A stretch of 52,838 nucleotides of DNA from Microcaldota archaeon (GTDB lineage: Archaea; Micrarchaeota; Micrarchaeia; Anstonellales; Bilamarchaeaceae), in NCBI GenBank assembly GCA_016212505.1, contig JACRGB010000001.1, forward strand, positions 1-52,838, read 5' to 3'. The notes under the pieces are model-generated. The model did not search any database and had not been told where the DNA came from. It saw nothing but the letters and a program-made list of their open reading frames with translations. Of this stretch, positions 14,443 to 52,024 are shown piece after piece (within the stretch, counting starts at the first letter, position 1; the number at the start of each line of letters is the position of its first letter). The position numbers were made by a program, and so were the translations under genes.

Positions 14443-14832
14443 CTAAGATTTTTGCAGAAGCAAAGATATATTTTCTTTGAGTTGTGGAAGATCTATTTTG
14501 ATCGTGCTCCAGACTGCCTTAAGATCAACCCCAAGATAATCATGGATCAGCTTATCTCTAGTCCCTGCAATCTCCTTCCAGGGTATATTGGTGTGTTTTG
14601 AGCGGAATTCCTTAGAAATGTTCTTTGTTGCTTCACCTATTATTTCAAGCTGCCTGACCACCCCATCCTGAAGTAGTTTGTTAGAGGACAAATTTTCGCA
14701 AAAATTTGTCCGCATTGGAATTTGCAAATTCCAATATAATAAAAAATCTTTTTGTGATTTGCCTTTCAAGTAATCTTCTATTGCATTTATCGAAATGAGG
14801 ATGTGGCTTATGTAAATATCATCTTTTTTCAA
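14443..14832 (-). CDS. hepT: HepT-like HEPN toxin (DUF86)
   Basis: RDKLIHDYLGVDLKAVW (RX4HXY); 4-nt overlap with an MNT gene. Confidence 0.88.
   Translation of the reverse strand: MKKDDIYISHILISINAIEDYLKGKSQKDFLLYWNLQIPMRTNFCENLSSNKLLQDGVVRQLEIIGEATKNISKEFRSKHTNIPWKEIAGTRDKLIHDYLGVDLKAVWSTIKIDLPQLKENISLLLQKS
14686..14735. repeat. Two-hairpin module A (inside hepT)
   Basis: GGACAAATTTTCGCAAAAATTTGTCC-GC-ATTGGAATTTGCAAATTCCAAT. Confidence 0.85.
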
Positions 14833-21404: not shown

Positions 21405-22469
21405 TCAATTTATTTGCACTTTGTTCTCGTCTTGGAATTTGTATATTCCAATTCGGACAAATTTTTCAAATTTGTCCTGCTCTATAATTATTTTTCTCTC
21501 TGTAAGGAACTTGGTTATTATTTCCGCATTGGTTTCCAAGTGCCCGGTTATTTCGCTGGTTTTGTATCTGCTGTTTCCTTTAGCGAGTGCAGCATATATT
21601 AGCAACTGGTCCGCAAGATGCTTATCCACATCGCTCTTTTGTTTCTCCTCGTTTTTAAGTCCATCGAGCGCTTCCTGGGCAACTGCCTCAGCCCGTTTTC
21701 CTTTTTCACCCAGAACATATGCTCCACGGCTGCCAGCATATGCCGTCACTGCATTTCCCACACTTAGCGCTTCATCCTGCCTGATAAAAACTTTTTCAAT
21801 TTCATTTTGTACAAATATCTTCTTTTCCCGAATGGCAATGCCCATATCCAAACCAGCAATTCGGATAATCGCGCTTATTTTTTCGTTTTCGTTATCGGTC
21901 CACAATTCATTCCCAATTAGTCCGCTCGCGCTTGGTTCGATTTCCAAATCAATAATTCCGCCGCCTTTTGGGTAATATCCAGCTTTTTTCATGCTGGTTT
22001 TTACCTTTGCGCCAAACCGCCCGATCGCAGGGACAAAAACGTTCTCAAAATAATCAAAACCCGGAGATTTCATTACGTGCGTTCCGCCAATAATTCTCAC
22101 CTGGCTTGCCTTCTCTGCTTTAGTAAGTAATATTGGCAATATTGTCTGCGCCACCAGCGTAACTGAACCAGCAGTCCCAATATCAAATTCGTATTTTCCG
22201 CCAACAATTGGCCCAGGAACAAATTTTAGCTCGGTACTCCCTACTTCTGCCCCTTCCAGGGTTCCTCTACATATGTTGCGGACCGCTTTGCACGCCATCA
22301 AATGCTGGGGTTGCAATCCTGGGTTTGGCCTGCCGGCCCTTATGTTAATTATGCGTACTGGATTTTGGGTTATGGCCGAAAGGGTCATTGCAGTTCGGAT
22401 TACTTGTCCGCCACCTTCACCAAATGAGCCGTCAATTTCAATTATTTCATTTTTTCGATCGTCAATCAT
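21405..22469 (-). CDS. rtcA: RNA 3'-terminal phosphate cyclase
   Basis: IDGSFGEGGGQVIRTAMTLSAITQNPVRIINIRAGRPNPGLQPQH; C-terminus encoded by a hairpin module. Confidence 0.95.
   Translation of the reverse strand: MIDDRKNEIIEIDGSFGEGGGQVIRTAMTLSAITQNPVRIINIRAGRPNPGLQPQHLMACKAVRNICRGTLEGAEVGSTELKFVPGPIVGGKYEFDIGTAGSVTLVAQTILPILLTKAEKASQVRIIGGTHVMKSPGFDYFENVFVPAIGRFGAKVKTSMKKAGYYPKGGGIIDLEIEPSASGLIGNELWTDNENEKISAIIRIAGLDMGIAIREKKIFVQNEIEKVFIRQDEALSVGNAVTAYAGSRGAYVLGEKGKRAEAVAQEALDGLKNEEKQKSDVDKHLADQLLIYAALAKGNSRYKTSEITGHLETNAEIITKFLTERKIIIEQDKFEKFVRIGIYKFQDENKVQIN
21432..21477. repeat. Two-hairpin module B (inside rtcA 3' end)
   Basis: TTGGAATTTGTATATTCCAA-TTC-GGACAAATTTTTCAAATTTGTCC. Confidence 0.85.
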
Positions 22470-22978: not shown

Positions 22979-23629
22979 ATGAAAATCCCACTAGCAAATA
23001 AGCTTAGAAGAAGAATTCACCTAGAAACTGCAATGCTGCAGGATGAAGTCTTAGAGATTGTTTATTCCCTAGAGTCAAATGCAATTCTTCATGGAGGAAC
23101 TTGCATTTGGAGATGTTATGCGGGAAATAGGTTTTCTGAAGATTTGGATTTTTATTTTAAGATAACTGAACAATTTGAAACCGGTCTAAGAAAAAAGCTC
23201 AAGGAAAGAGATCTTCTGTTGCTAAAATATAAGAAGACCTCGAATTTATTGTTCTCTAAAATTTCTGACGGGAATATTGAAGTTCGATTAGAGGTTAATT
23301 TAAGCCCCAAGAAACTAGTTGGTGTGGTCCGGCCATACGAAAAAATAGATGGCTCATATGTGGATATTTTTACCCTTTCCCCAGAAGATCTTATCCTCGA
23401 AAAAATATCCGCCTATCAATCAAGAAAATTAATTAGGGATATTTATGACATATATCACTTGAGCAAATATGTCCAAAAAGAAGACCAATTTAAATCGCAA
23501 TTACTTACTTTCCTAAATTCAATCCAAAAACCGATTGATGAACCAAACCTCAAGGCAATAGTTTATACAGGAGCAATACCTTCCTTTAAACAAATTTTAG
23601 AATATCTCAACTCGAGGTTTTCAAAATGA
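22979..23629 (+). CDS. AbiEii-like nucleotidyltransferase toxin
   Basis: LHGGTCIWRCYAGNRFSEDLDF motif. Confidence 0.88.
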   Translation: MKIPLANKLRRRIHLETAMLQDEVLEIVYSLESNAILHGGTCIWRCYAGNRFSEDLDFYFKITEQFETGLRKKLKERDLLLLKYKKTSNLLFSKISDGNIEVRLEVNLSPKKLVGVVRPYEKIDGSYVDIFTLSPEDLILEKISAYQSRKLIRDIYDIYHLSKYVQKEDQFKSQLLTFLNSIQKPIDEPNLKAIVYTGAIPSFKQILEYLNSRFSK

Positions 23630-24204
23630 AGTACTTATCTTTATTTCGGGAAGCGTTCCGAGATCGCCAAACTTTCACTATTGCAGATGTATTGCATGTA
23701 CTTTCAAAAAAAGGAATAAGCGATGAGTATACTTATGTTCTAATAAATCATTTAACAAAAAAAGGTGAGATTAAGAAAATAAAACGCGGGGTTTATACAT
23801 TTAAGAGTGATCTGACCGTAGTAGGTTTTGCTTATTCCCCTTTTTACTATGGTTTAGCGGAAGCCCTTTCTTTGCGTAAGTTATCCGACCAGGAGGTTAA
23901 CCCGATAGTAATAACCTGCCGGAAAGTCCGGACTGGCACCAAGAACTTTCTCGGAAATAATTATCTTGTAAAAAAATTTGACCGTAAACTATTTTTTGGT
24001 TTTGAAATGATAAAATATTATGATTTTTGGATTCCTGTTTCAAATCTCGAAAAAACTCTTATAGATTTTGTTTATTTTAGGCAAAAATTGTCAAAAGAAA
24101 CTATTAAAGAACTAAAAAAACAACTTCGAAATGATGTATTGAAAAGTTATCTGAAAAAAGTTCCAAAATGGGTAAAAGTGAGAGTTTCGGCCCTACTTGC
24201 TTAG
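23626..24204 (+). CDS. AbiEi-like antitoxin (wHTH)
   Basis: Partner overlapping AbiEii by 4 nt; N-terminal wHTH. Confidence 0.78.
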   Translation: MKYLSLFREAFRDRQTFTIADVLHVLSKKGISDEYTYVLINHLTKKGEIKKIKRGVYTFKSDLTVVGFAYSPFYYGLAEALSLRKLSDQEVNPIVITCRKVRTGTKNFLGNNYLVKKFDRKLFFGFEMIKYYDFWIPVSNLEKTLIDFVYFRQKLSKETIKELKKQLRNDVLKSYLKKVPKWVKVRVSALLA

Positions 24205-24678
24205 ATCCTCTACAATGGCATTATTTATGCGAACGATCTCTTTTGGGGAGACCTTTGTCAAAGCTTTCTGCGATCCGCCACCGCTATAAACTACTTCCTT
24301 ATCCATAACCAAATTATCTATAAAGAAGCGGGCTTTATACCCAAATGAAGGAGTTCCACCTGCAGGATAGCCTGTTCTTTCCAATATTTCCTCGCTATCA
24401 GCAAACCTAACCCTTTTACTTCCTAATATAGTGCCTACTTTCTTCACATCAACCCGCCTAATTCCTGGTATGATTGCAACAATAAATTCGTTCTTATGGC
24501 CATTCTCATCATCAACCAGGCAAATGTTCTTGACAAACTCTTCGGGTGTAGCCTTTGCAGAGCGTGCTGCCTCCTCAACCGAGTGGCAGGATGTCTCAAA
24601 AACCAGAAGCTGGGCATCAATTGAATTTGCATTGATAAATGCCCTTAATTTCTCTTCGTATTCATTCATGCTTATCAT
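24193..24678 (-). CDS. YbaK/ProX-type aminoacyl-tRNA deacylase
   Basis: SIDAQLLVFETSCHSVEEAARS...YPAGGTPSFGYK. Confidence 0.85.
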   Translation of the reverse strand: MISMNEYEEKLRAFINANSIDAQLLVFETSCHSVEEAARSAKATPEEFVKNICLVDDENGHKNEFIVAIIPGIRRVDVKKVGTILGSKRVRFADSEEILERTGYPAGGTPSFGYKARFFIDNLVMDKEVVYSGGGSQKALTKVSPKEIVRINNAIVEDLSK

Positions 24679-24744
24679 CGGCCTATTACTAGCTAAATTA
24701 TAGAATTAGAATTAAAAGGTTAGTAACACGAAACCTAAATATCA

Positions 24745-24910
24745 ATGCATCTGACGGGTATGCAAAATTAGGCCAGCGCATCGCTGCGCTGGCAAGGCGA
24801 CCAGTTATCCTCCCATGCACTTTAAAAAAGAGCGTTAAACCTTGAACGATCCTTGTTCAAGATTGACGAATTAAAAATTCGTCAAGCATGATATCTTAGA
24901 CCTAACTGGT
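24745..24910. repeat. Nested-hairpin island
   Basis: GCCAGCGCATCGCTGCGCTGGC; CTTGAACgatccttGTTCAAG; TTGACGAATTaaaAATTCGTCAA; outer ACCAGTTA/TAACTGGT. Confidence 0.7.
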
Positions 24911-24920
24911 ATATAAAGGT
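24908..24920 (+). promoter_or_regulatory. TATA-box-like element upstream of the structured RNA candidate
   Basis: GGTATATAAAGGT ~40 nt before the first stem. Confidence 0.4.
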
Positions 24921-24958
24921 TTTTATTTGTCAGATGACGGATGGCTGTGTTACGTTTT

Positions 24959-25279
24959 CGGCTCTGTAGAATTGCTTCAAGCAGCGGCACCGTCAATAGG
25001 GGCTGCGCGCTGCGGCAATTGCGTTCCGAAACGCAATTGTAGCTGCCGCATAAAAAATGCGGCATCAATAGCAAACCACGCTGAGGTAATCATGGGCAAA
25101 ACCGGTTGCATTACTTTCGTGGTTTGCTATGGTCGCCTTCGAAGGCGACCGACTGCCCCGAGGCAGTCGCCGCTATTGGCGTATTGGAAATGGACATTTC
25201 CAATACAGACAAATTTTTGCTAAAATTTGTCACGGCGCAGCCCGATCTGCCGCTGCTATAGAGGGTTTCTACAGAGCCG
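24959..25279 (+). ncRNA. Candidate structured RNA / compound palindrome (multibranched)
   Basis: 13-bp closing stem CGGCTCTGTAGAA/TTCTACAGAGCCG, nested GCAGCGGCA/TGCCGCTGC and GGGCTGCGC/GCGCAGCCC stems, seven internal perfect or near-perfect hairpins, followed by a T-run. Confidence 0.5.
25181..25231. repeat. Two-hairpin module C (inside the structured island)
   Basis: GTATTGGAAATGGACATTTCCAATAC-A-GACAAATTTTTGCTAAAATTTGTC. Confidence 0.85.
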
Positions 25280-25342
25280 TTTTTTCCTTAACTTATATGG
25301 GATTGTCAGCGGTTTTAATAATATCTGTTCATCAATAACTAT

Positions 25343-25906
25343 ATGACTAAAAGTCCTACTCCAAGAGATCCTCCCCGGCCTGCTCCTGAGCGGACAGCTG
25401 CAGCTCGTTCGGGAGTTAAATCCCCTCTTTCTGATCGTGTGTCTATCCTGCCAGGGAAAATTATCGAGAGTTTGAAAACCCTCGGCCGAAACTGGAGCGA
25501 TTTGGTAGCCCAGTCAATTGGTCTCCACGCTTTAGATAAAAGAGGCACCCGGCTTTTCGTAACTGAAGGGGAAAAATTCGTTGCATACTCTACTAGCGAT
25601 CAAGAGCAGCTTATGCTAGATGTTATGCGTTCATTTTCAACTGGCGGATCACTGCCTCTAACTCCTCCTGAATATGGGATAGCGGTGTATGAGCAGACTA
25701 ACAATAGTTATCTTGTGCTAGTTGATAATGGTAAAACCAGAAAGCTTATTTTGAGGACATTTCTCTCAAGTTATTTGGAGCCTGAGCAGAATGGCTGGGG
25801 TAATGTTCTAGAGGCGATCCGGTCTGCAGAACGGGAAGCTGCAAAACCAGAAAATCGGGGCAAAATTATTATCTCTGATCTAGGTTCAATAACGATCCAA
25901 GGTTAA
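25343..25906 (+). CDS. Hypothetical protein
   Basis: 187-aa ORF convergent with the giant gene. Confidence 0.55.
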   Translation: MTKSPTPRDPPRPAPERTAAARSGVKSPLSDRVSILPGKIIESLKTLGRNWSDLVAQSIGLHALDKRGTRLFVTEGEKFVAYSTSDQEQLMLDVMRSFSTGGSLPLTPPEYGIAVYEQTNNSYLVLVDNGKTRKLILRTFLSSYLEPEQNGWGNVLEAIRSAEREAAKPENRGKIIISDLGSITIQG

Positions 25907-25932: not shown

Positions 25933-28900
25933 TTATTTTGACGCTTGCCTTGCAGGCTGTGAAGAACTTTGTTTCGGATTTATTACCCCATCCAAAATAT
26001 CCCCCCACATGCCTTGATAACCATCTGTCCTTCCTTTCCCTAAAAGATGATCAAAAACAGGTATGGCATCATCTGCGTTGAAGAGGCCCCTGCCATATCT
26101 GTCAACTCCCTCGTATTCTGGCGCACCATTCATTGGGGCAGGAACTGTTGGTAATTTTCCTCCTCTTTCTCCGGCGTGGTGTGCTTCTATCTCTCCCACC
26201 ATTTTTGGGCTCAGTTGCTGCCCAATACCTGCAGTATATCCGTCATTTCCCATAAAGGCTGCACGCATATTATTTGCAAAACCATCAGTGCTTCCAATCT
26301 GCCTATGCCATTGGCTAGCCCCATCTGTAATGGCTGCTGAAGCAAACTGCGCTACTTCTGAAATTCCTATTCCCTCAATTGATGCAAAAGGATGAAGTGC
26401 TTTTCCAAGATCCTCAGAATAATGGGGGATCAGATGATTTTTTGAAGAAGAAATATCATAGCCCCCATTTGCTCTTTTGGATACCAAAAATTGCCCTGCA
26501 GCATCAGTGTCTATTCGTCCTATTTTGAAAACTGCCGGCCCCTGTTCTGTGCTAACTACTGTGTAGCCATTGCTTTCAAGGAAAGGCACAAGGAAAGGCG
26601 CTTCTGCTGGAGGAACTGCCAGAAGCATAGCCTGAAGGTTTGAAGAATGGCTATCGTAAGAACCCGTGAGCATAAGTCCTGTGCTCGCATAACCTATTTC
26701 TTTGAAAACCGCTTCGGGGTGCTCCTTGTAAAATTGCAACAATCTGGGATTTTCTTTTAAGTTAGATAAACTCGATGCATCAACAGTGGAAACTCTGATC
26801 TCCCTCCCAGCAAAATTGACCCCACCTTCAAAATCTTTTATATGTTCCATCAAACCATACGTTGTAGAAACTCCATCTGAACCTACAAAAGTAAATGGCC
26901 TGCCGTTTGCTTCAGTTATTATTTCTGGCGTTGGTATCCCTGCGATTCTGCCCGTTTTTGCACCAAAAGCAGCAGGCCGCAGGTCCTCCCTTTTCGCAAA
27001 TAATGAACGTTCATGGCCAGATGGTTCAACTATTTTTATTTCATAAGCCCCAATTATCCCCTCGTGTCCGGTAATTCCCGTAATTTTGCTTCCAGCAGGA
27101 ACCCGTGCCAAAATATGCTGGGTAAGTTCACCAGATAATAAAAGATGCCCTATTGCTGGATATTGTGCTGCATATCTTTGGTGTTGTGGGTTGCCTGAGA
27201 GGTATGTTTTGTATATTCCCCTGCGATCTAGTTCACTACTCAGTGCCATAGCCGCTTCAGCAGTGTTGTTGTGTTTTAGGTAAGGCTCCTTAAGAACCCC
27301 TGGAGCTAAACCAAGGGCGCGCTCGGCTTCTGCAATTCCCCTTAAATTATACAAGTAAGCTGCACCATCTTTTTTACCAGCAGCATGAAGGTTCCTTATT
27401 GTGAAATCTTGCTTTTCTGGAGTTGATGAGAGGAATTTTTCTGCAGTTCTAACTCTTTCATGGGCATTTGGTGATTCGATTCCAGCAGCAACTGATGTTG
27501 TTTCCGCTAACTCACTTCTTGAAAGTGCTGGACGCACTTCTGCAGCTTTAGCTGATTTTGATACTCCTTCCCGAGGAGTGGTTGGTTTGCTGCTAAATAA
27601 TCCCCAAAGGTTTCCTAATCCTCTTTCTTTTGGTTGTGCAATTTGCCCTGGCCTGGTGATTGGCTCATCTACGGGCCTTTGTACTATTCGTGTTGGTTGT
27701 TGTGCGCGTTGTGCCTGTTCTTTTTGTGCTTGCGTTTCGACTCGTGCTGCTTGTTGTGGTTGCTGAACTGGCTTTTGGATTTGTGCCGCTGCTGGTTCGG
27801 CAACTGGCCTCGGGGCAACTTCAATCCCTAATAATCCATCTGCTTCCCGCCTGAACTTTGCTGCGTTTCCTTCTAGCCTTCCTGCCCTTTCTAAAGTGCG
27901 GCCTTCATTAACTCCCGCACGATGGTTCGCCCTAATTTCAGCAGCTTCCGCTTCGAGTGCTTTTGCCTGATCCAAAAGCATATTCGCCCTCATATGGTTT
28001 GGACTTTGTGCGGCTGCTATTGGCTGTGGTCCTTGCTGCCCTGGCCTTTCTGCTGCCGCTGCCAGGGCTTCTTTTGCCCGTACTGGCCCTGCTAATTGTT
28101 CAACCGGCGCCTCTGCTGCTCGCTTGATTTTGGTGTCTGCCCGCTGCTGCTGTATGTGCGCTGCCCAGCTCATTATTCCATCTGCCTCGGCAGCTGCTAG
28201 CTGGTTTGGATCATAAACCGTTCCCTTTCTTTGCACTTCTGCAATCTGCGCCCGATAATTTCTTGTAGCGGTTACTGCTTCCTGATGCTCCAGTGGCACT
28301 GGCTCAGATGGGTTGTTTAACAAGTATTCCAATGTCCTTGCGATTTTTCGTTGTTCCTGGTTAGGCGGTTTGCTATACTGCTCCGGACCCCACCTTGCCT
28401 TAAACTGTGTTTCGAGCGGAGCTGAGCTGCTTACTCTGCCCACTACTGCCTCCAAATCCTCGGCATTTGGCCTCGGCCTTTCTTGGACTGGGCTTTGCCC
28501 ACCTTCCGCTCTTCTCCCCACTACTTCTTCTAGGGCGGAGGTGGGTCGGGCTTTTGCCCTATCCATTGCATCAGCAGCCTGATGTAGCATATCTGCTCCA
28601 TCCTGATAAATATTCGCATGCATCTGGCCAATCCTGTTTCTGGCCTTTTCAGTTGCTTCCCTTGCCTTTGCTTCTTCTCTTGCTGCATAATCTCTTATTT
28701 CGCTACCTCTTTTCAAGCCCAATTCTTCTACGTTGTGGATGAGCCTCATCCTATTTGCAGCTTCCTGGGCTTTCTGGTCTGTACTAAATTCTGTCAGGTT
28801 TTCTGTTTCTTCAATTGCAAGTGCGATCTCTTTTCTGGCATTTAGGTTATCTCTATTTGCCTTGTATTGTTTTGCCAGCCTATCTACTGATGGAGCAATA

Positions 28901-31900
28901 TCAACTGGGAACTCACTTGAACTTCTTCTTCCTTCGGCTACTTCTTTTGCAGCTGCGGCAAGTTCGCATGCTCTTTCATACTGATTTTGTGGAATGCTTG
29001 CCTTGAGTTCCCCTTCTGCGAATGTTCTATTTCCATCTGCAGCTACTGGTAGCTGCTCATCATATTGCGGATGTCTTGATTCTACTGCTCTCTCTTGGGC
29101 AGGTGCAATAGGTTCGCTTTTAGGCCCGCCAGTTCCTTGTTTTTCTGCAGCAACTGTTTCATTTACTGCCGTCTTTGCAGCTTCCCGTATATCTTTTGGA
29201 GTTGGTCGCTCACCCCCAGGATATTGTTCACTTAAAAGTTGCATCATTCGTGCAACTTGGTCAGTTGGCGTAACCCATTTACCAACATCTTCAGATTGCA
29301 TGGACGCTAGTGTCCTTTCATATTCCGAAACCAGGCCATCTGTCCTGGCTCTTAACTCAGACACTTTAACTGCTGCGTCTTCACCAGGAGTTAGTCTTTG
29401 TCCACTAGCGAGTTTTTCCCGTCCGCTTTGTGTTAATCTGTGCAGATCTGCTTCCCTTAAGTCAAGTCCAACTGCGCCCCGTTGCCTGTTTCTTCTTCTG
29501 GATATTTTATCAAATTCTTTTTCCGCTGCACCTATCTCATCCCCGGCCTGCGCTGGTTTTTTCGAACCCACTCCAAATGTATCTTTCACTGTTTCCCATG
29601 CTGCTTTTGCAGAACGTGCGGCTTTTTGCCCAAATCTTTCTGGAGTACTTTCTGGAACTGGTTCTCCAAATGCATCATCGAATCCAGCAGGAAGTTCAGT
29701 ATCCATTTGACCTGGCGAATTTGTTTGCGATTTCTTTTCTTTGACAACTTCTAAAATTGCCCTTTCTTCAGGCACGCCACCTTTGACTTTTTCAGCTACT
29801 TCTCGTGCATCGTTAATATCAGATAAACGCACTTCTCCACTTCCAAAGGTCTGATTGTGCAGAGTATTATGTATTCTTCTAGCATTATCTGCTTCCTCCT
29901 TTGTTATCTTTATTGAAGCATCAGTAGATTCTGTTGCAGTAGTCAATACTTTTTCAAATTCCAGTCGCTTTGGTTCATATGCAACCCTTTTAGCAAAGTC
30001 TGCAGCGATCTTTGTTACTTCTGCTTGTTTGGCCACATCTGTTTCTTCGGAGACGCTTCGTTTTTCTGATAAAAGTAAATTAACTGGGTCAACCGTTTCT
30101 TCAAGTATTTGTCTTATGTATTTTTTTTCTCCAGCTTCCTCGACTTTAACTTCAATAACTTTGGCACCAGTTTCGCTTGTACCATGTTTCTTTAGCTCTG
30201 CAGCAATTTCCGCCTCACTTGCCCCTTCTTTAATTTCAATGAGCTTGCCTGTTCGTTCAGTAAATTTATATTTTCCAGATAATATTGCAGCTTCTTCAGG
30301 GCTTAATATGAGTTTTCCATTTCCAATATCATCAAGAATCCTTGCATTTTTCTTTACCTTTTCGCTCGCTCCTTCAAGTTGCCCTTCAAGTACTGCTGAT
30401 CCCTTATCAATTGAATAAGCTCGCTCTATTTGTGCAACTCTGCGAGCTGCACTTCTTTCGTTGCCTCGGCCTCCTTCTAACACTTCAAGATTTGGTTTTG
30501 CTCCAGCCGCTGGTTTTGCGCCTTCAGCTGGTTTTTCTACTGGCTGCGGAGCTCCAACTACTGCCCTTTGTCTTTCCGCTTGCACTTCTTCCGGGAATGA
30601 GCGCTCAGGGGCCAATCTTGCTGCGGCTGCTTCTGCTGAAACTGGCGTCCTTGCTCTTTCACCTTCAGCAATCTTCCTAAATCCAAGCCCTTCCAATAAT
30701 GTATCTATCTTTTGCGGCGAAATCCCTCTCTTTTCTTTCAGATAAAACAGGAAATCTTCAGGTGTTCTGACCCAAAGATAATTATGCATGTCTCGTAATG
30801 CTCTGACTATTTCCGGATCCATAACTCCAGCAGCATCACTCATGAATTTTTCCACTGTTAAAGGCGTTCCATCACGTGCTAAGAATCTTGGTACTGTTTC
30901 ATTATTTTTTCCGTCATAGTAAAGATGAGATGCGGAAACAAGTGCTGAAAGACGCAGTCCTGCCCCTCTTCCACTCTGGCTAGTTTCATCTGCCTGATAA
31001 TTGAATACGACTTTACTCACTTGTTCTTTGGTCCTTTGAACTGCTATACTGTATGCCCTTTCTTTAGCCGTTCCATATGTTGCCCCAGGCTCAAGCGCAA
31101 GTGTGTATGGATCAGGGACTTTTTCATAGAATATTTTTGCTCCTTTAATCTCCCCTGCACCTGCCTTATCTTTTACCCTCTCCTTGAATATTTCCTGAGT
31201 TCTTTTCAATGCTTTACCAAGACTATCCAACACCGCTCCTTTAGCTTTTTCACTTACCCCAACAAGCTCAAAGGCAAAAGCCATTGGCCCATCTACATAT
31301 ACCTTTACTTGCCCGCCTAATCCGGCTTCATTTAGTGCAGTATCCAAAGCAATTTGCATTTGCTTTGTTATTGCATCTGCAATTGGATGCCCTAGCTGGT
31401 TCACAACACTAGGCCCAGAAATATCTTTTTCAATATGTGTGACTCCCTTTCCATTCTTACTTGCAAGGGCAAGAATATCCGATTTGAAATTTGGATCAAA
31501 TTCAACCCTGAAAGTAGCAACCATTTCTATTGCTATATCTCGCCTTTGCGTTTTTTTTGCTTCTACAAGGTTTACTAATTTTACTTTGTTTGCAGCAGAT
31601 TTCATTGTTTTATCAATGAAGTTCTCTATGTGCTGCGCTGCTTCTGGGTTTTGCGGCCGTAAATTATTTAGCGTATCATGTACTTCAAGCCCTGCTAAAG
31701 CTGCATCAAGTGAATTGTACTGCCTTCCTCCAAATGTATAGGTCCGTTTTCCTCCATCTATTTTAGCTTCTACTGTTCCGCCATGTGCGCTTACTCCAAC
31801 TAATGCATCAGATAACGGGCATCCTTCTTCTACTCCTCTTGCTTTGGCCTCTGTTTTCAAGTGTGCATTAAAAGCATCTCTATATGCTTCTATCGGAGTT

Positions 31901-34900
31901 TTCGTTCCTTCCAATATTTCTTTTGGAACATTTTGATATCGTGCTCTCTGTTCAGGTGACATTGCCTCAAACTTAGCTGGAGTAAGGGTAATGACATCTG
32001 CAGGAAGTGCAATTACTATTTCATCACCAATCTGGGTCTGCATTTTAACTGCAATTTCCGGATGCTCGGCCATGAACTTTCGCCCTGCTTCAAAATAAAT
32101 TAGCAAACCAAGATTTCCAATTTCCTGCGCGTTATATGTTCGGTCATGCACTGCCCAATCCTTGCCTCCAAGCCCAAATCCATTTTTCATCCAGGTTTTT
32201 GCACCATCGAAAAATATCAGTCCCAAATGAGGAGATTCAAGAACAATACGGTCATTTTCGCTTAGAAGAGGAAGTATTTCTGCAGAAACTTCCGCCCCGT
32301 TATTAAGCACCTTGAATATGTTGAATTTGTCTTCTGCAACGTATCCAATCCTTTTACGCGCTTCATTAAGTGCAGTTTTCAATGCCAGGGCAGCATCTTT
32401 CAATGTATCAAAATAGCTTCTTTTATCATCGTTGGGTGTGGCTTCCAAACCAAGAGATGCCTTTAATGTGGAAGCATCCCCCCTAACTCCTTCTGAAACA
32501 AGCTCATGAAGTCTTTGCCCAGTTTCTTCAACACTAATTCCTTTTGCAACTTCAACTGTTTGGGATGGAGCAACTCTTTCTTCACCCTTTGTTATTGCTT
32601 TTTCTTCCGCCTGTGCTCTTGCTTCTAGCTCTTTTGCTTTCGCATTTGTTTCAGTCATTTCCCGATATATTTTTCTTCTTTCACTTGGTAAAGCTTCTGT
32701 ATCGACTGCTTTTACATATTCGTCGGCAAGTGTGTGCGCTTTTTTCCTTAGTTCTTGAGCTTTTGTGTGCAATTCCCGGGCCGTAGGTGCAGCCTCAATT
32801 TCTCCGGAAATAACTGCAGTGCCCCTTCTTTCGCCAGGAGATTTTATGGCTGGTTCCCGTCTTGCTGCCTCATCCCTAAGTTGAGCTGCTGCTTCTTCAT
32901 GTGCTGCTGCCTTTTGGGTTTTGCCCTCAATAATATTTTCGTATCGCGCTCTCCATCCGCCAGTTAATCGTGCTGCCCTCTGTTTAGCTTCTGAAGTTTC
33001 TGCTCGCAAATCTTCTGCCTTTCTTGCTTCTGCAGCAGCAGCTTCGCGCAATTGTGCCGGAGTTTTTGTTACATCTTTTAGGAGCGGATCAACTGCACCA
33101 ACAACCTCTCTTCGGATTTTTGGATCAACTTGTGGAACATCTACTTCTCCAGCTGCCCTGCTGGTCCTTCCCTCACTTACTACTCCTCCGGAAACAACTG
33201 TGCCGCTTCTTCCTTCTCCAGGCGATCTGGTTCCTGGAGCTGGTGAAGGACCCTGCCCACTACCAGTAGTTTCAGGGGGGAAACTTCCCCGAGGAACCAC
33301 TAATTGCTGACCATCAAATAGTTGTCTAAACTGCGCCCTCGTATGAACAAATGGCAGAGCGGATTGGAAACCAACTGTAAGAATGTTCAAATAGTCCATC
33401 TTTGTAGCATCAGGACCTAAATTATGCACCGATTCGTAAAGCCCCGAAACCATGTGCACTCCACCATAAGCCCAATTCGCGAACCCGGCGTATTTTGCAA
33501 CATGCCGCATTGCATACATTCCGCGCTCGGCCGATGTTACGCCCCTGCCAGTTGCTTCTGCGAGCATTATTGACTGGGCACCAACCTGCGCAATGCGCGC
33601 AAGACCAAGAGTTCCAACTGTTGCCCCAAACATCACTAAACTAGTAGTATCTATTTCGCCAGTTTTACGGGCATTATTGGCAATATCCAATCCCCAAAGA
33701 GCAAGTCCTAAACCGCCAGAAACAAATCCTGTTCCGATCAGTACTACGCTCTTGGCAAATTCAACTCCTTTTTCAAGTTCCTGATTGTAGTGAAGGCGCT
33801 CCTTTTCTGCTTTATTGAATCGCTCGAGATCGCGTGTGGGTTCGCCTGGTTGTGGGATTTGTTTTCCTTTTAATGATTGTTTGAGCTCATCCCTTTGTTC
33901 CAAGAGCCCATCAAGTTCCTTCTGCATTTTATCTTCTTGCTTAAATGCCCCATCTGCAAGGCCGGCATATTTTTTCTTTGCACCTTCTGATTTTGCAGCC
34001 CGCGTCTGTTTCCTATAACTTTCGGCCGCATCAAATTGGCCTTCCCTTTTTTTATCTAAATCCAGAATACGTTTTTCCAAAGTTTCGAGTTTTTTGCCGT
34101 CATCTACCCGCCCCTGGGGTTCAATGACATTTACAAGCAGGTTCCTTTCAAACATAACATAGAGCGCATCTTTTTGTTTTGAATCAAATGATGTTGAGGA
34201 GTACATGCTAAAGAGCACTGAAAAATTGGTTTCAAGCGCATCAAAATATCTTTGCTTGGAAGCTATTGCATCAGGAGATCCGCTTTGAGCAGTTTTCAGC
34301 GCATTAAGTTCATCATAAGTTTTTAGTATTTGTCCTCTAAGAAGTCCTGTATATCTATTGAATACCGGACCGGCAGCTATTGGGCTCTGATAAAAACTAA
34401 CAAATCCAGATTTCATATATTGGTCTGCATCAGCCCATAAATTTCCGCCACCCCCAAGGCCATCTATCTGCCTGTGCACGAAACTCTCAACAGTTTCGCC
34501 AGAAGATCTTTTTGCAGAAATATGATAGTTCCTTATCGCACCTTCAGTATGAAAATCGAATGTCGCGAAAATTTTATTTTCCTTATCTATAACATAGGTA
34601 GCCCCGTTTCCTTTCCCAAAACTAATATCAAAAACCCGATATCCATTATATTCTGCTGCATTTTGAGGAATTAAACCCGCAGGAAATATCTCGCCTTTTT
34701 GTGCAAGTATTATTGAAGCATCATTTGCAGATCGCAGTGCAATATTGAAGTTTCGCTCAGCATTTTCAAAATCTCTTTTTAACGAAGGATCTTTACCAAG
34801 TGACTGTGCATGCGCTGATGCTGAAAGCATATGTTGCATCGCATCCATCATTTTTGAGAATCCTTTCCTGTGACTTTCGAAACTCAGGTTAGTTAGGCGG

Positions 34901-36792
34901 AAAGTTTGTGCAAGTGTTTCAAATTCATCCTGCTCAAGATCAAGTCCCTTGGCTTTTTTGAGCATTTCATCCAATTTTATCCCCTGGACCTGTGCCCTTA
35001 ATCCAAGGAGATTTTCACCCATCAGCCTCATCGTGCGTTTATCATTATCATCAAGGCGGCCATCTTTTGCAAATTTGTCCAAACTAGTAAGGCTTTCATT
35101 TGTGCTATCAAGCAATTTCTTTCGCTCTTTGACCATATCTTCAATTGCAAGAACTCGTTTTGCCCGCTTATATTGGTCGTCAACTGCAGCGCGAATATCC
35201 AAACCTGCAGCCGCAAGGTCGATTGGATTTTTAGTTTCAGTGATTTGTTTTTTCAAATCATTTATGACTTTCTGCCATAACTCGGCTGTAAATATTTTGT
35301 TTCCCTTACTATCAGTTGCAGAACCGACTTCTTTAGCCATTTCCGCTATCTTCTTCTCAATTTTATTTAGTTCGGCTACTTTCTCCGCCTTTGCCTTTCC
35401 AAACTGACTGGTGATTTCAGTGCTTTGCGTTTCTTTTAACAGCTCCGTTCTTTTTTCTTCTGGAGTTTTCAATATTTTTGCATAACTAATTGCTATTTCA
35501 TGGAACTTTTCTGCCTCTTTGATCAGACCTTTTTGCGTTGATTCTAATTCTGCCACAAGTGCTCTTTCAATTCCTCTTGCCACCTGGATGTAATCTTTTG
35601 AAACTGAACTTTGTTGGTCTCCTTCTTTTGCCTTTGCATAAAGTTCTCGTGCTGCTTTTGCAACTTCTGCAGCACCTTTTCCGACTTTTCCTTCGAGTAA
35701 ATCAATTTCGCTATTGAACCTTGCAATTTCAACAGAAGTTTCGTGTTTTTTCAATATCTCCTGCTGCTCCTTCCAAAACTCAAATGATTTTGGCTGCGCA
35801 TCTGGTTTCTGCATCTGCTCCAAGGTTTTTCCAAGTTCTTCAAGATATTTTATTGAGGGCGCAATTTCGCCTTTTCTTTTTTCATTTGTCTTTGCAATAT
35901 CAAGATAAATATTTCCTAATTCAGCTGCAAATATGCCCTCGTTAGTCATTCCTTTTGAATAAAAATCTGCTGCAAGTTCGAAATATTGCTTTGCTATTTT
36001 TGTATCTGGATCAGTTGCTTTAATTGATTCTGCTGCCATTCTTGCCTGCGCTTCATACTGCGCATTTTGAATTTCTCGTCCATTTTCGCTTTTTTCTATT
36101 ACTCTGGCAAGTTCTGCCGCCCGCTCTTGAGCTGCTTTATTTTTTGATCCAACATAAAGTGTGCGGGCGCATGCTACCGCAATGGCCTTATCAAAATCCG
36201 GCTTTTCATCGGCCATCGCATCGAATGCAGTTTTAGTCATTTGGGTTATTGTAGCTGCATTTGGAACATTGCTTTTTGATAATGCAGTTATCTGGTCATC
36301 AAATTGTATTAATGCTAGAACAACAGAATAATCTTTGATTGCCAGAGGTAAATTTGTTTCTGCTTTTTCTAATCGCCCAATCAACTCTTTTGATTTTAGT
36401 ACAATTAGATCTGCCCTTCCGTGCTCCTCCCTATTCATTCCACTTCTTGCACTGTTAATTTGTTTGACTAACCTTTCAAGTTGCTCTTTTATTGCAAGTG
36501 CCTCCTGCTGTTCCATTTTTTCTGGTGCATTTGCACCAGTTATTTTATCAAGCTCAGTTTGAAGTTTTTTTGCAGAAGCGAGCAGCTGGTTTACTCTATT
36601 TGTTGCTGCTGAAACATCTCTTTGTACTGTTTGCCGGGTTTGTTTTGCCCTCTCGATTTCTTTTGCGGTCTGGGTAAGGACAGGCACAAGTCCTCTTGAG
36701 AATCGCACGAGTTTTATCGCTTCTTCTGTGGCTGCAGCCTGTTCTGGGGGAGCTTTCTCTTTTTCAACCATTTTAGCTATCTCCCCGTGCAA
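25933..36792 (-). CDS. Giant 3619-aa multidomain protein; coiled-coil, degenerate GGDEF-like and C-terminal kinase-like domains
   Basis: Uninterrupted 10.9-kb ORF; hydrophobic segment GVEFAKSVVLIGTGFVSGGLGLALWGLDIA; HIEKDISGPSVVNQLGHPIADAI...VYVDGPMAFAFEL; LFAKRED...YGLMEHI...GSYDSHSSNLQ...GRIDTDAAGQF. Confidence 0.9.
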   Translation of the reverse strand: MHGEIAKMVEKEKAPPEQAAATEEAIKLVRFSRGLVPVLTQTAKEIERAKQTRQTVQRDVSAATNRVNQLLASAKKLQTELDKITGANAPEKMEQQEALAIKEQLERLVKQINSARSGMNREEHGRADLIVLKSKELIGRLEKAETNLPLAIKDYSVVLALIQFDDQITALSKSNVPNAATITQMTKTAFDAMADEKPDFDKAIAVACARTLYVGSKNKAAQERAAELARVIEKSENGREIQNAQYEAQARMAAESIKATDPDTKIAKQYFELAADFYSKGMTNEGIFAAELGNIYLDIAKTNEKRKGEIAPSIKYLEELGKTLEQMQKPDAQPKSFEFWKEQQEILKKHETSVEIARFNSEIDLLEGKVGKGAAEVAKAARELYAKAKEGDQQSSVSKDYIQVARGIERALVAELESTQKGLIKEAEKFHEIAISYAKILKTPEEKRTELLKETQSTEITSQFGKAKAEKVAELNKIEKKIAEMAKEVGSATDSKGNKIFTAELWQKVINDLKKQITETKNPIDLAAAGLDIRAAVDDQYKRAKRVLAIEDMVKERKKLLDSTNESLTSLDKFAKDGRLDDNDKRTMRLMGENLLGLRAQVQGIKLDEMLKKAKGLDLEQDEFETLAQTFRLTNLSFESHRKGFSKMMDAMQHMLSASAHAQSLGKDPSLKRDFENAERNFNIALRSANDASIILAQKGEIFPAGLIPQNAAEYNGYRVFDISFGKGNGATYVIDKENKIFATFDFHTEGAIRNYHISAKRSSGETVESFVHRQIDGLGGGGNLWADADQYMKSGFVSFYQSPIAAGPVFNRYTGLLRGQILKTYDELNALKTAQSGSPDAIASKQRYFDALETNFSVLFSMYSSTSFDSKQKDALYVMFERNLLVNVIEPQGRVDDGKKLETLEKRILDLDKKREGQFDAAESYRKQTRAAKSEGAKKKYAGLADGAFKQEDKMQKELDGLLEQRDELKQSLKGKQIPQPGEPTRDLERFNKAEKERLHYNQELEKGVEFAKSVVLIGTGFVSGGLGLALWGLDIANNARKTGEIDTTSLVMFGATVGTLGLARIAQVGAQSIMLAEATGRGVTSAERGMYAMRHVAKYAGFANWAYGGVHMVSGLYESVHNLGPDATKMDYLNILTVGFQSALPFVHTRAQFRQLFDGQQLVVPRGSFPPETTGSGQGPSPAPGTRSPGEGRSGTVVSGGVVSEGRTSRAAGEVDVPQVDPKIRREVVGAVDPLLKDVTKTPAQLREAAAAEARKAEDLRAETSEAKQRAARLTGGWRARYENIIEGKTQKAAAHEEAAAQLRDEAARREPAIKSPGERRGTAVISGEIEAAPTARELHTKAQELRKKAHTLADEYVKAVDTEALPSERRKIYREMTETNAKAKELEARAQAEEKAITKGEERVAPSQTVEVAKGISVEETGQRLHELVSEGVRGDASTLKASLGLEATPNDDKRSYFDTLKDAALALKTALNEARKRIGYVAEDKFNIFKVLNNGAEVSAEILPLLSENDRIVLESPHLGLIFFDGAKTWMKNGFGLGGKDWAVHDRTYNAQEIGNLGLLIYFEAGRKFMAEHPEIAVKMQTQIGDEIVIALPADVITLTPAKFEAMSPEQRARYQNVPKEILEGTKTPIEAYRDAFNAHLKTEAKARGVEEGCPLSDALVGVSAHGGTVEAKIDGGKRTYTFGGRQYNSLDAALAGLEVHDTLNNLRPQNPEAAQHIENFIDKTMKSAANKVKLVNLVEAKKTQRRDIAIEMVATFRVEFDPNFKSDILALASKNGKGVTHIEKDISGPSVVNQLGHPIADAITKQMQIALDTALNEAGLGGQVKVYVDGPMAFAFELVGVSEKAKGAVLDSLGKALKRTQEIFKERVKDKAGAGEIKGAKIFYEKVPDPYTLALEPGATYGTAKERAYSIAVQRTKEQVSKVVFNYQADETSQSGRGAGLRLSALVSASHLYYDGKNNETVPRFLARDGTPLTVEKFMSDAAGVMDPEIVRALRDMHNYLWVRTPEDFLFYLKEKRGISPQKIDTLLEGLGFRKIAEGERARTPVSAEAAAARLAPERSFPEEVQAERQRAVVGAPQPVEKPAEGAKPAAGAKPNLEVLEGGRGNERSAARRVAQIERAYSIDKGSAVLEGQLEGASEKVKKNARILDDIGNGKLILSPEEAAILSGKYKFTERTGKLIEIKEGASEAEIAAELKKHGTSETGAKVIEVKVEEAGEKKYIRQILEETVDPVNLLLSEKRSVSEETDVAKQAEVTKIAADFAKRVAYEPKRLEFEKVLTTATESTDASIKITKEEADNARRIHNTLHNQTFGSGEVRLSDINDAREVAEKVKGGVPEERAILEVVKEKKSQTNSPGQMDTELPAGFDDAFGEPVPESTPERFGQKAARSAKAAWETVKDTFGVGSKKPAQAGDEIGAAEKEFDKISRRRNRQRGAVGLDLREADLHRLTQSGREKLASGQRLTPGEDAAVKVSELRARTDGLVSEYERTLASMQSEDVGKWVTPTDQVARMMQLLSEQYPGGERPTPKDIREAAKTAVNETVAAEKQGTGGPKSEPIAPAQERAVESRHPQYDEQLPVAADGNRTFAEGELKASIPQNQYERACELAAAAKEVAEGRRSSSEFPVDIAPSVDRLAKQYKANRDNLNARKEIALAIEETENLTEFSTDQKAQEAANRMRLIHNVEELGLKRGSEIRDYAAREEAKAREATEKARNRIGQMHANIYQDGADMLHQAADAMDRAKARPTSALEEVVGRRAEGGQSPVQERPRPNAEDLEAVVGRVSSSAPLETQFKARWGPEQYSKPPNQEQRKIARTLEYLLNNPSEPVPLEHQEAVTATRNYRAQIAEVQRKGTVYDPNQLAAAEADGIMSWAAHIQQQRADTKIKRAAEAPVEQLAGPVRAKEALAAAAERPGQQGPQPIAAAQSPNHMRANMLLDQAKALEAEAAEIRANHRAGVNEGRTLERAGRLEGNAAKFRREADGLLGIEVAPRPVAEPAAAQIQKPVQQPQQAARVETQAQKEQAQRAQQPTRIVQRPVDEPITRPGQIAQPKERGLGNLWGLFSSKPTTPREGVSKSAKAAEVRPALSRSELAETTSVAAGIESPNAHERVRTAEKFLSSTPEKQDFTIRNLHAAGKKDGAAYLYNLRGIAEAERALGLAPGVLKEPYLKHNNTAEAAMALSSELDRRGIYKTYLSGNPQHQRYAAQYPAIGHLLLSGELTQHILARVPAGSKITGITGHEGIIGAYEIKIVEPSGHERSLFAKREDLRPAAFGAKTGRIAGIPTPEIITEANGRPFTFVGSDGVSTTYGLMEHIKDFEGGVNFAGREIRVSTVDASSLSNLKENPRLLQFYKEHPEAVFKEIGYASTGLMLTGSYDSHSSNLQAMLLAVPPAEAPFLVPFLESNGYTVVSTEQGPAVFKIGRIDTDAAGQFLVSKRANGGYDISSSKNHLIPHYSEDLGKALHPFASIEGIGISEVAQFASAAITDGASQWHRQIGSTDGFANNMRAAFMGNDGYTAGIGQQLSPKMVGEIEAHHAGERGGKLPTVPAPMNGAPEYEGVDRYGRGLFNADDAIPVFDHLLGKGRTDGYQGMWGDILDGVINPKQSSSQPARQASK

Positions 36793-42066: not shown

Positions 42067-42164
42067 ATTGTAAATTTGATAATTTACAATTCGTAGCGAA
42101 CACGGTTCGCTACAGGAGAAATTCAAAGAATTTCTCCACGGACAAAATTTATGAAATTTTGTCC
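42067..42164. repeat. Hairpin module D (upstream of proS, four hairpins)
   Basis: ATTGTAAATTTGATAATTTACAAT; GTAGCGAACACGGTTCGCTAC; GGAGAAATTCAAAGAATTTCTCC; GGACAAAATTTATGAAATTTTGTCC. Confidence 0.85.
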
Positions 42165-42224
42165 ATTCTATATCAAAAGAAGTTAGAAAGTCGAATTTCA
42201 AATGTTCTTATTTCCGGTGAAACT

Positions 42225-51770: not shown

Positions 51771-51944
51771 CAGTGGAGATGCGCGGTTCGATTCCGCGCG
51801 AGCCCAATTTTCCCTCAATCGCCAGTTTTCAGTCTAGCGTTTTGCCGACTGGAAAATTGGGCGACTTGGCCGAAGGCCAAGAAGAGTCAAATAATCCCTT
51901 TGTCGCCATTTTCAGTTCCCAGTTTCTGCTGATCCTGTTTTCGT

Positions 51945-51996
51945 ATTGTAAATTTGATAATTTACAATTCGGACAAATTTTTGCGAAAATTTGTCC
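51945..51996. repeat. Two-hairpin module E (upstream of kinase 5)
   Basis: ATTGTAAATTTGATAATTTACAAT-TC-GGACAAATTTTTGCGAAAATTTGTCC. Confidence 0.85.
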
Positions 51997-52024
51997 TTCC
52001 GCTCGCTCCCCTGAATTACGCTCA

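Follow-up and report, generated by a model that had tools for sequence, protein, structure and literature searches.

Positions 24959-25279 of the window (the whole stretch of 52,838 nucleotides analysed here, from a Microcaldota archaeon) are occupied by a short repeat, element A, which has been invaded by two further repeats, elements B and C, and not by one RNA gene. We assign a probability of about 0.87 to the reading that small non-autonomous MITE-like transposable elements have nested here, one within another. A DNA search of the region against its own genome (1.48 Mb in 46 contigs) returned 59 matches, falling into three families, and each match other than the region itself spans only part of the query. 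An initial annotation had proposed a candidate new structured RNA or, alternatively, a compound palindrome. The first proposal is unsupported, as the locus splits into three separately dispersed repeat families, uninterrupted copies of A lack the hairpins of B and C, and both the TATA-like box and the T run, close to its ends, fall outside the repeated unit. The second is borne out by the presence and absence of single hairpins among copies, a variation that the annotation had named as grounds for giving up the RNA, and which was looked for and found. The features are the following.

24960..25278, plus strand: element A, MITE-like, about 174 nt without its inserts, defined by own-genome copies and their alignment
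24960-25039, 25130-25181 and 25233-25278: the three pieces of A in the window, whose ends shift by 2 bases with the assignment of the duplications
24960..24971, plus strand: left TIR of A, GGCTCTGTAGAA, the same end being found in elements of genomes G012 and G025
25267..25278, minus strand: right TIR of A, TTCTACAGAGCC
24952..24959: left target duplication of A, ACGTTTTC, eroded, 5 of 8 letters agreeing with GTTTTTTC
25279..25286: right target duplication of A, GTTTTTTC
25040..25129, plus strand: element B, 90 nt, TAGC...GCTA, inside A, defined by other copies and the empty site
25038..25039 (left) and 25130-25131 (right): 2-bp duplication TG of B, relative to the empty site
25182..25232, plus strand: element C, 51 nt, inside A, defined by repeats elsewhere and the empty site
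25180..25181 (left) and 25233-25234 (right): 2-bp duplication CG of C, relative to the empty site
Other copies of A: C30:2127-2299, C42:16643-16817, C29:21831-22007, C3:38241-38415, C8:11554-11792
Partial copies of A: at the ends of contigs C37, C36 and C4
Other copies of B: C30:43194, C10:7409, C2:1180, C14:36491, C36:58349, C43:3935, C42:12186, C2:18912

Uninterrupted copies of A, 173-177 nt long, are found on contigs C30, C42, C29 and C3. Removal of B and C from the window copy leaves 173 nt that align end to end with the other copies, at 82-91% identity to the uninterrupted ones when a few extra letters at the joints are kept. The TIRs are 12 bp long in the window, C30, C42 and C8 copies, with one mismatch in those of C29 and C3. 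Target duplications are of 8-9 bp: in six copies, 34 of 48 flanking letters agree when an 8-bp repeat is assumed, a value reached by none of 100,000 random placements (mean 13.1, maximum 27), and the C8 copy, which fits 8 bp poorly, has an exact 9-bp repeat. The element is too short for a transposase, and its other copies lie at unrelated sites on 5-8 contigs, some of the partial copies at contig ends being perhaps two ends of one copy. With TIRs, a target duplication and several short copies at unrelated sites, element A has the defining features of a MITE. Contig ends C4, C37 and C36 (L027, L016 and L019) break within A copies that carry a hairpin array of two further elements, D and E, so that the assembly itself has been cut by these repeats.

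B has the inverted ends TAGC and GCTA and a TG duplicated relative to its empty site, CAATTGGTCGCC, which is found in the uninterrupted A copies, and thus shows the ends and duplication of a MITE; in copies elsewhere with readable flanks, the GCTA end is followed by TA. C consists of two hairpins, TATTGG...CCAATAC and GACAAATTTTTGCTAAAATTTGTC, and recurs at over 20 further sites of the genome, including four within the window. Its empty site in the uninterrupted A copies is ATTGGCGGCGCAGCC. The TG and CG dinucleotides are doubled around B and C and single in uninterrupted A; given such duplications and empty sites, the layers are best explained by transposition. Three more C copies in the window lie at 14685-14745 (minus), 21421-21478 (plus) and 51943-51998 (plus).

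Beyond the three dispersed families, their empty sites and their duplications, multi-level nests are observed elsewhere in the genome. The C8 copy of A holds D at a site other than those of B and C, and the copies at contig ends C4, C37 and C36, some of which are possibly two ends of one copy, hold a D that itself holds E, a hairpin array. B holds an element F at C10, and at C14 F is interrupted by G. Several copies of C have one or more extra hairpins between or within their own two, and a hairpin pair, X, which leaves a 2-bp duplication, sits at one particular CG of C in either orientation. A C-like element at about 42070-42165 of the window contains the two X hairpins, TAGCGAAC and GGAGAAATTC, and they are inverted there relative to copies L017 and L069. 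The core of A likewise stands both ways round relative to its ends (one way in the window, C30, C8 and C4, reversed in C42, C29, C3, C37 and C36), and orientation and hairpin-sequence states are found in all four combinations. This switching of the A core and of X, and the four combinations, would be expected if hairpin modules spread or rearranged mainly by recombination, or by replication template-switching between palindromes, without transposases, and four transposase families were indeed not found in the genome. We consider such an origin unlikely, since transposition is what yields precise element ends with target duplications, at sites unrelated to one another; recombination could be no more than an additional process, affecting MITE-like elements after their insertion.

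The composite folds as one multibranched structure because each element is built of hairpins and the inserts lie at or near hairpin bases. The 13-bp closing stem that had been described is in place (CGGCTCTGTAGAA, 24959-24971, with TTCTACAGAGCCG, 25267-25279), 12 of its 13 bp being the terminal repeat of A and the outermost C-G pair flanking DNA, and the two further stems and seven hairpins are present and part of the minimum-energy fold. The TATA-like TATATAAAGG upstream and the six-T run downstream are also as described, starting at 24911 and 25280, and the whole window gives no Rfam match at the gathering score. The minimum free energy of the 361-nt region is -183.9 kcal/mol, against -114.2 +/- 5.4 in dinucleotide shuffles (z = -12.8; 0 of 100 as low), a structure far beyond chance because the region consists of palindromic repeats.

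Pairing within A is also maintained among its copies. The RNAalifold structure of eight copies pairs in 98.4% of cells, and two-sided pair-preserving changes number 15, against 5.2 in shuffles (none of 500 reaching 15) and 0-6 after sliding, in a test that favours this structure, as it was derived from those same eight sequences. The covariation could be due to selection on the fold or to arm-templated correction of palindromes, between which eight related copies cannot decide; since pairing is kept by two-sided changes and the core occurs in both orientations, the fold may play a role for element A itself. Measured from the nearest non-apical helix boundary, all 8 insert positions lay no more than 4 nt away (P ~0.002), and 5 of the 8 lay no more than 2 nt (P 0.11) and also no more than 1 nt away (P 0.03). 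These three cut-offs were tried with the data already in view, on predicted folds, so that a preference for helix boundaries is a hint and not a finding. A strict version, in which insertion sites avoid stems, was dropped, as most predicted sites fall just within a stem, a few bases from its foot. It is unlikely that the wider proposal holds, in which Micrarchaeota carry self-nesting hairpin elements with a preference for inserting at the base of another hairpin, as a cruciform or single-stranded target, and grow multibranched structures in which selection maintains the pairing, with flipping cores.

In the window, A lies between a gene with a tRNA-editing domain (24193-24678, minus strand) and an ORF at 25343-25906 (plus strand). 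A crude ORF-based count placed the copies mostly between genes or at gene ends, with tandem, convergent and divergent neighbours all represented and no common regulatory position relative to genes visible; several copies fell within ORFs in this count, and at least in the window that ORF is one running through the repeat itself. The intergenic placement and the maintained pairing are compatible with copies that the host recruited after insertion and keeps for an action in cis, as DNA or as RNA (for instance as terminators, processing sites or sites of protein binding), but position and orientation relative to genes are inconsistent in the same crude count, and we give such recruitment a small chance. 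Just upstream of A, a palindrome-rich stretch at 24690-24950 is single-copy in this genome; perfect palindromes GCCAGCGCATCGCTGCGCTGGC and TTGACGAATTAAAAATTCGTCAA lie at 24756-24900. Adjacent genes at 22979-24204 match the domains of AbiEii (a nucleotidyltransferase toxin) and the AbiEi antitoxin, and are likely a type IV toxin-antitoxin pair. Directly downstream, a 3619-aa ORF (25933-36792, minus strand) is very large for a 1.5-Mb genome.

A genuine structured noncoding RNA, with B and C as lineage-specific expansion segments and the dispersed copies as an RNA gene family, is very unlikely: the fold z-score, the 15 two-sided changes in A and, close to the ends, the TATA-like box and the T run would suit it, but B and C stand alone elsewhere, target duplications are present, Rfam gave zero matches, A was found in its own genome alone among 41 genomes searched by DNA, and no promoter upstream or terminator downstream is common to the A copies, since their homology ends with the terminal repeats.

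Elements with the ends of A and a different interior were found in relatives G012 and G025, with direct repeats of 8-9 bp; those of G012 have the exact 8-bp repeats CTTCTTTT, GAAATAGC and ATCATTTG. The conserved right end of B, ACTTTCGTGGYTTGCTAT, is present in Ca. Micrarchaeota and Ca. ainarchaeum assemblies, where TA comes after it and the hairpins before it vary, the pattern to be expected of a mobile family whose end is fixed while its interior changes. Three matches to ACTTTCGTGGYTTGCTAT in bacterial assemblies, without the rest of B, look like chance. B-like elements with extra hairpins beside the conserved right end were seen in a LacPavin MAG (L044, L047 and L057) and in NC_groundwater_1744 (L036, L049 and L056), and nesting appears to extend beyond this genome, to other Micrarchaeota. 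Viral contigs were considered as carriers, and a search with three exact patterns gave zero matches. The relatives keep the tRNA-editing gene, but the other neighbours are not beside it there, and an orthologous locus without A was not found in them.

A nest of MITE-like elements would have arisen in two steps. A would have inserted between the tRNA-editing-domain gene and the ORF at 25343-25906, with a duplication of about 8 bp, and B and C would then have inserted into A beside its hairpins, each with a 2-bp duplication. Transposases acting in trans would presumably have moved the elements, that of A being possibly IS6-like, to judge only from end sequence and duplication length. Against this reading stand the four transposase families missing from the roughly 90% complete genome, the window copy of A keeping 5 of 8 duplication letters, the failure to find an orthologous A-less locus in relatives, and two-sided pair-preserving changes exceeding the needs of a purely inert repeat.

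The families sought in the genome were PF01610, PF13610, PF01797 and PF13358. For element A, the ends and 8-bp duplication of ISL3 presumably fit, but a search of 84 genomes of the order found PF01610 in none. An integron attC site, whose core we take to be GTTRRRY, was set aside for B, in which this core is missing and whose flanks are duplications, not gene cassettes; IS200/605 (Y1_Tnp) and IS630 (DDE_3) were also rejected as its partners, being absent from the genome. IS6 was rejected as the partner of A, PF13610 being absent from its own genome; two PF13610 matches in 83 genomes had no A-like ends within the stretch read around the gene, and A was not found to share its ends with an autonomous IS6 of the same or a related genome, as an IS6-derived MITE would. 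The A end GGCTCTGTAGAAA, with GGTTCTGTAGAAA as its form in G025, resembles the IS6 end consensus GGTTCTGTTGCAAA (PMC6807381), and the IS6 target duplication is 8 bp (PMC7986276), a likeness in ends and duplication length that does not amount to membership. Unlike the IS6-family MITEs, two of which are in ISfinder (PMC7986276), A has a GC-rich multi-hairpin core and not the interior of a shortened insertion sequence, and its genome has no IS6-type transposase. A transposase gene between GGYTCTGTAGAAA ends or ACTTTCGTGGTTTGCTA ends, if present in complete Micrarchaeota genomes, would name the mobiliser.

The closest precedent is the small mobile repeats (SMR-A) of Haloquadratum walsbyi, inserted in PATE and IS605-type palindromes (PMC3119063). 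Those, too, are short archaeal repeats that have inverted ends but no transposase, enter the palindromes of other mobile elements and form conglomerates. However, SMR-A are about 110 bp long and make no target duplication, whereas duplications here are of 2 bp for B, C and X and 8-9 bp for A, which places B and C outside SMR-A; the host element is MITE-like with TIRs, which PATEs lack (PMC3119063), and the nests reach three levels, unlike those of SMR-A in Haloquadratum. Bacterial REP/BIME palindromes, which are targets of insertion sequences (PMC1525189), are similarly dispersed, extragenic and open to other mobile elements, but in the present case what inserts is a hairpin repeat too, and Y1_Tnp, the type associated with REPs, was not found in this genome. 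Prokaryotic MITEs are described, in the portion of PMC10969869 considered here, as short, intergenic elements with TIRs, target duplications and transcripts predicted to fold stably; A agrees in length, TIRs and target duplications, and the multi-level nesting and switching of core orientation seen here do not figure in that portion.

In the literature searched, no report of MITEs or transposase-linked palindromic repeats in Micrarchaeota was found, and A, B and C are new families of a known kind in this phylum. If insertions prefer hairpin bases, a genome with many copies and empty sites would be well suited to the study of hairpin-directed insertion. A folding z-score from a single genome would strongly call such a nest an RNA, and a multibranched 'RNA' may prove to be an assembly of nested mobile palindromes, which calls for caution in structure-based RNA discovery in DPANN archaea.
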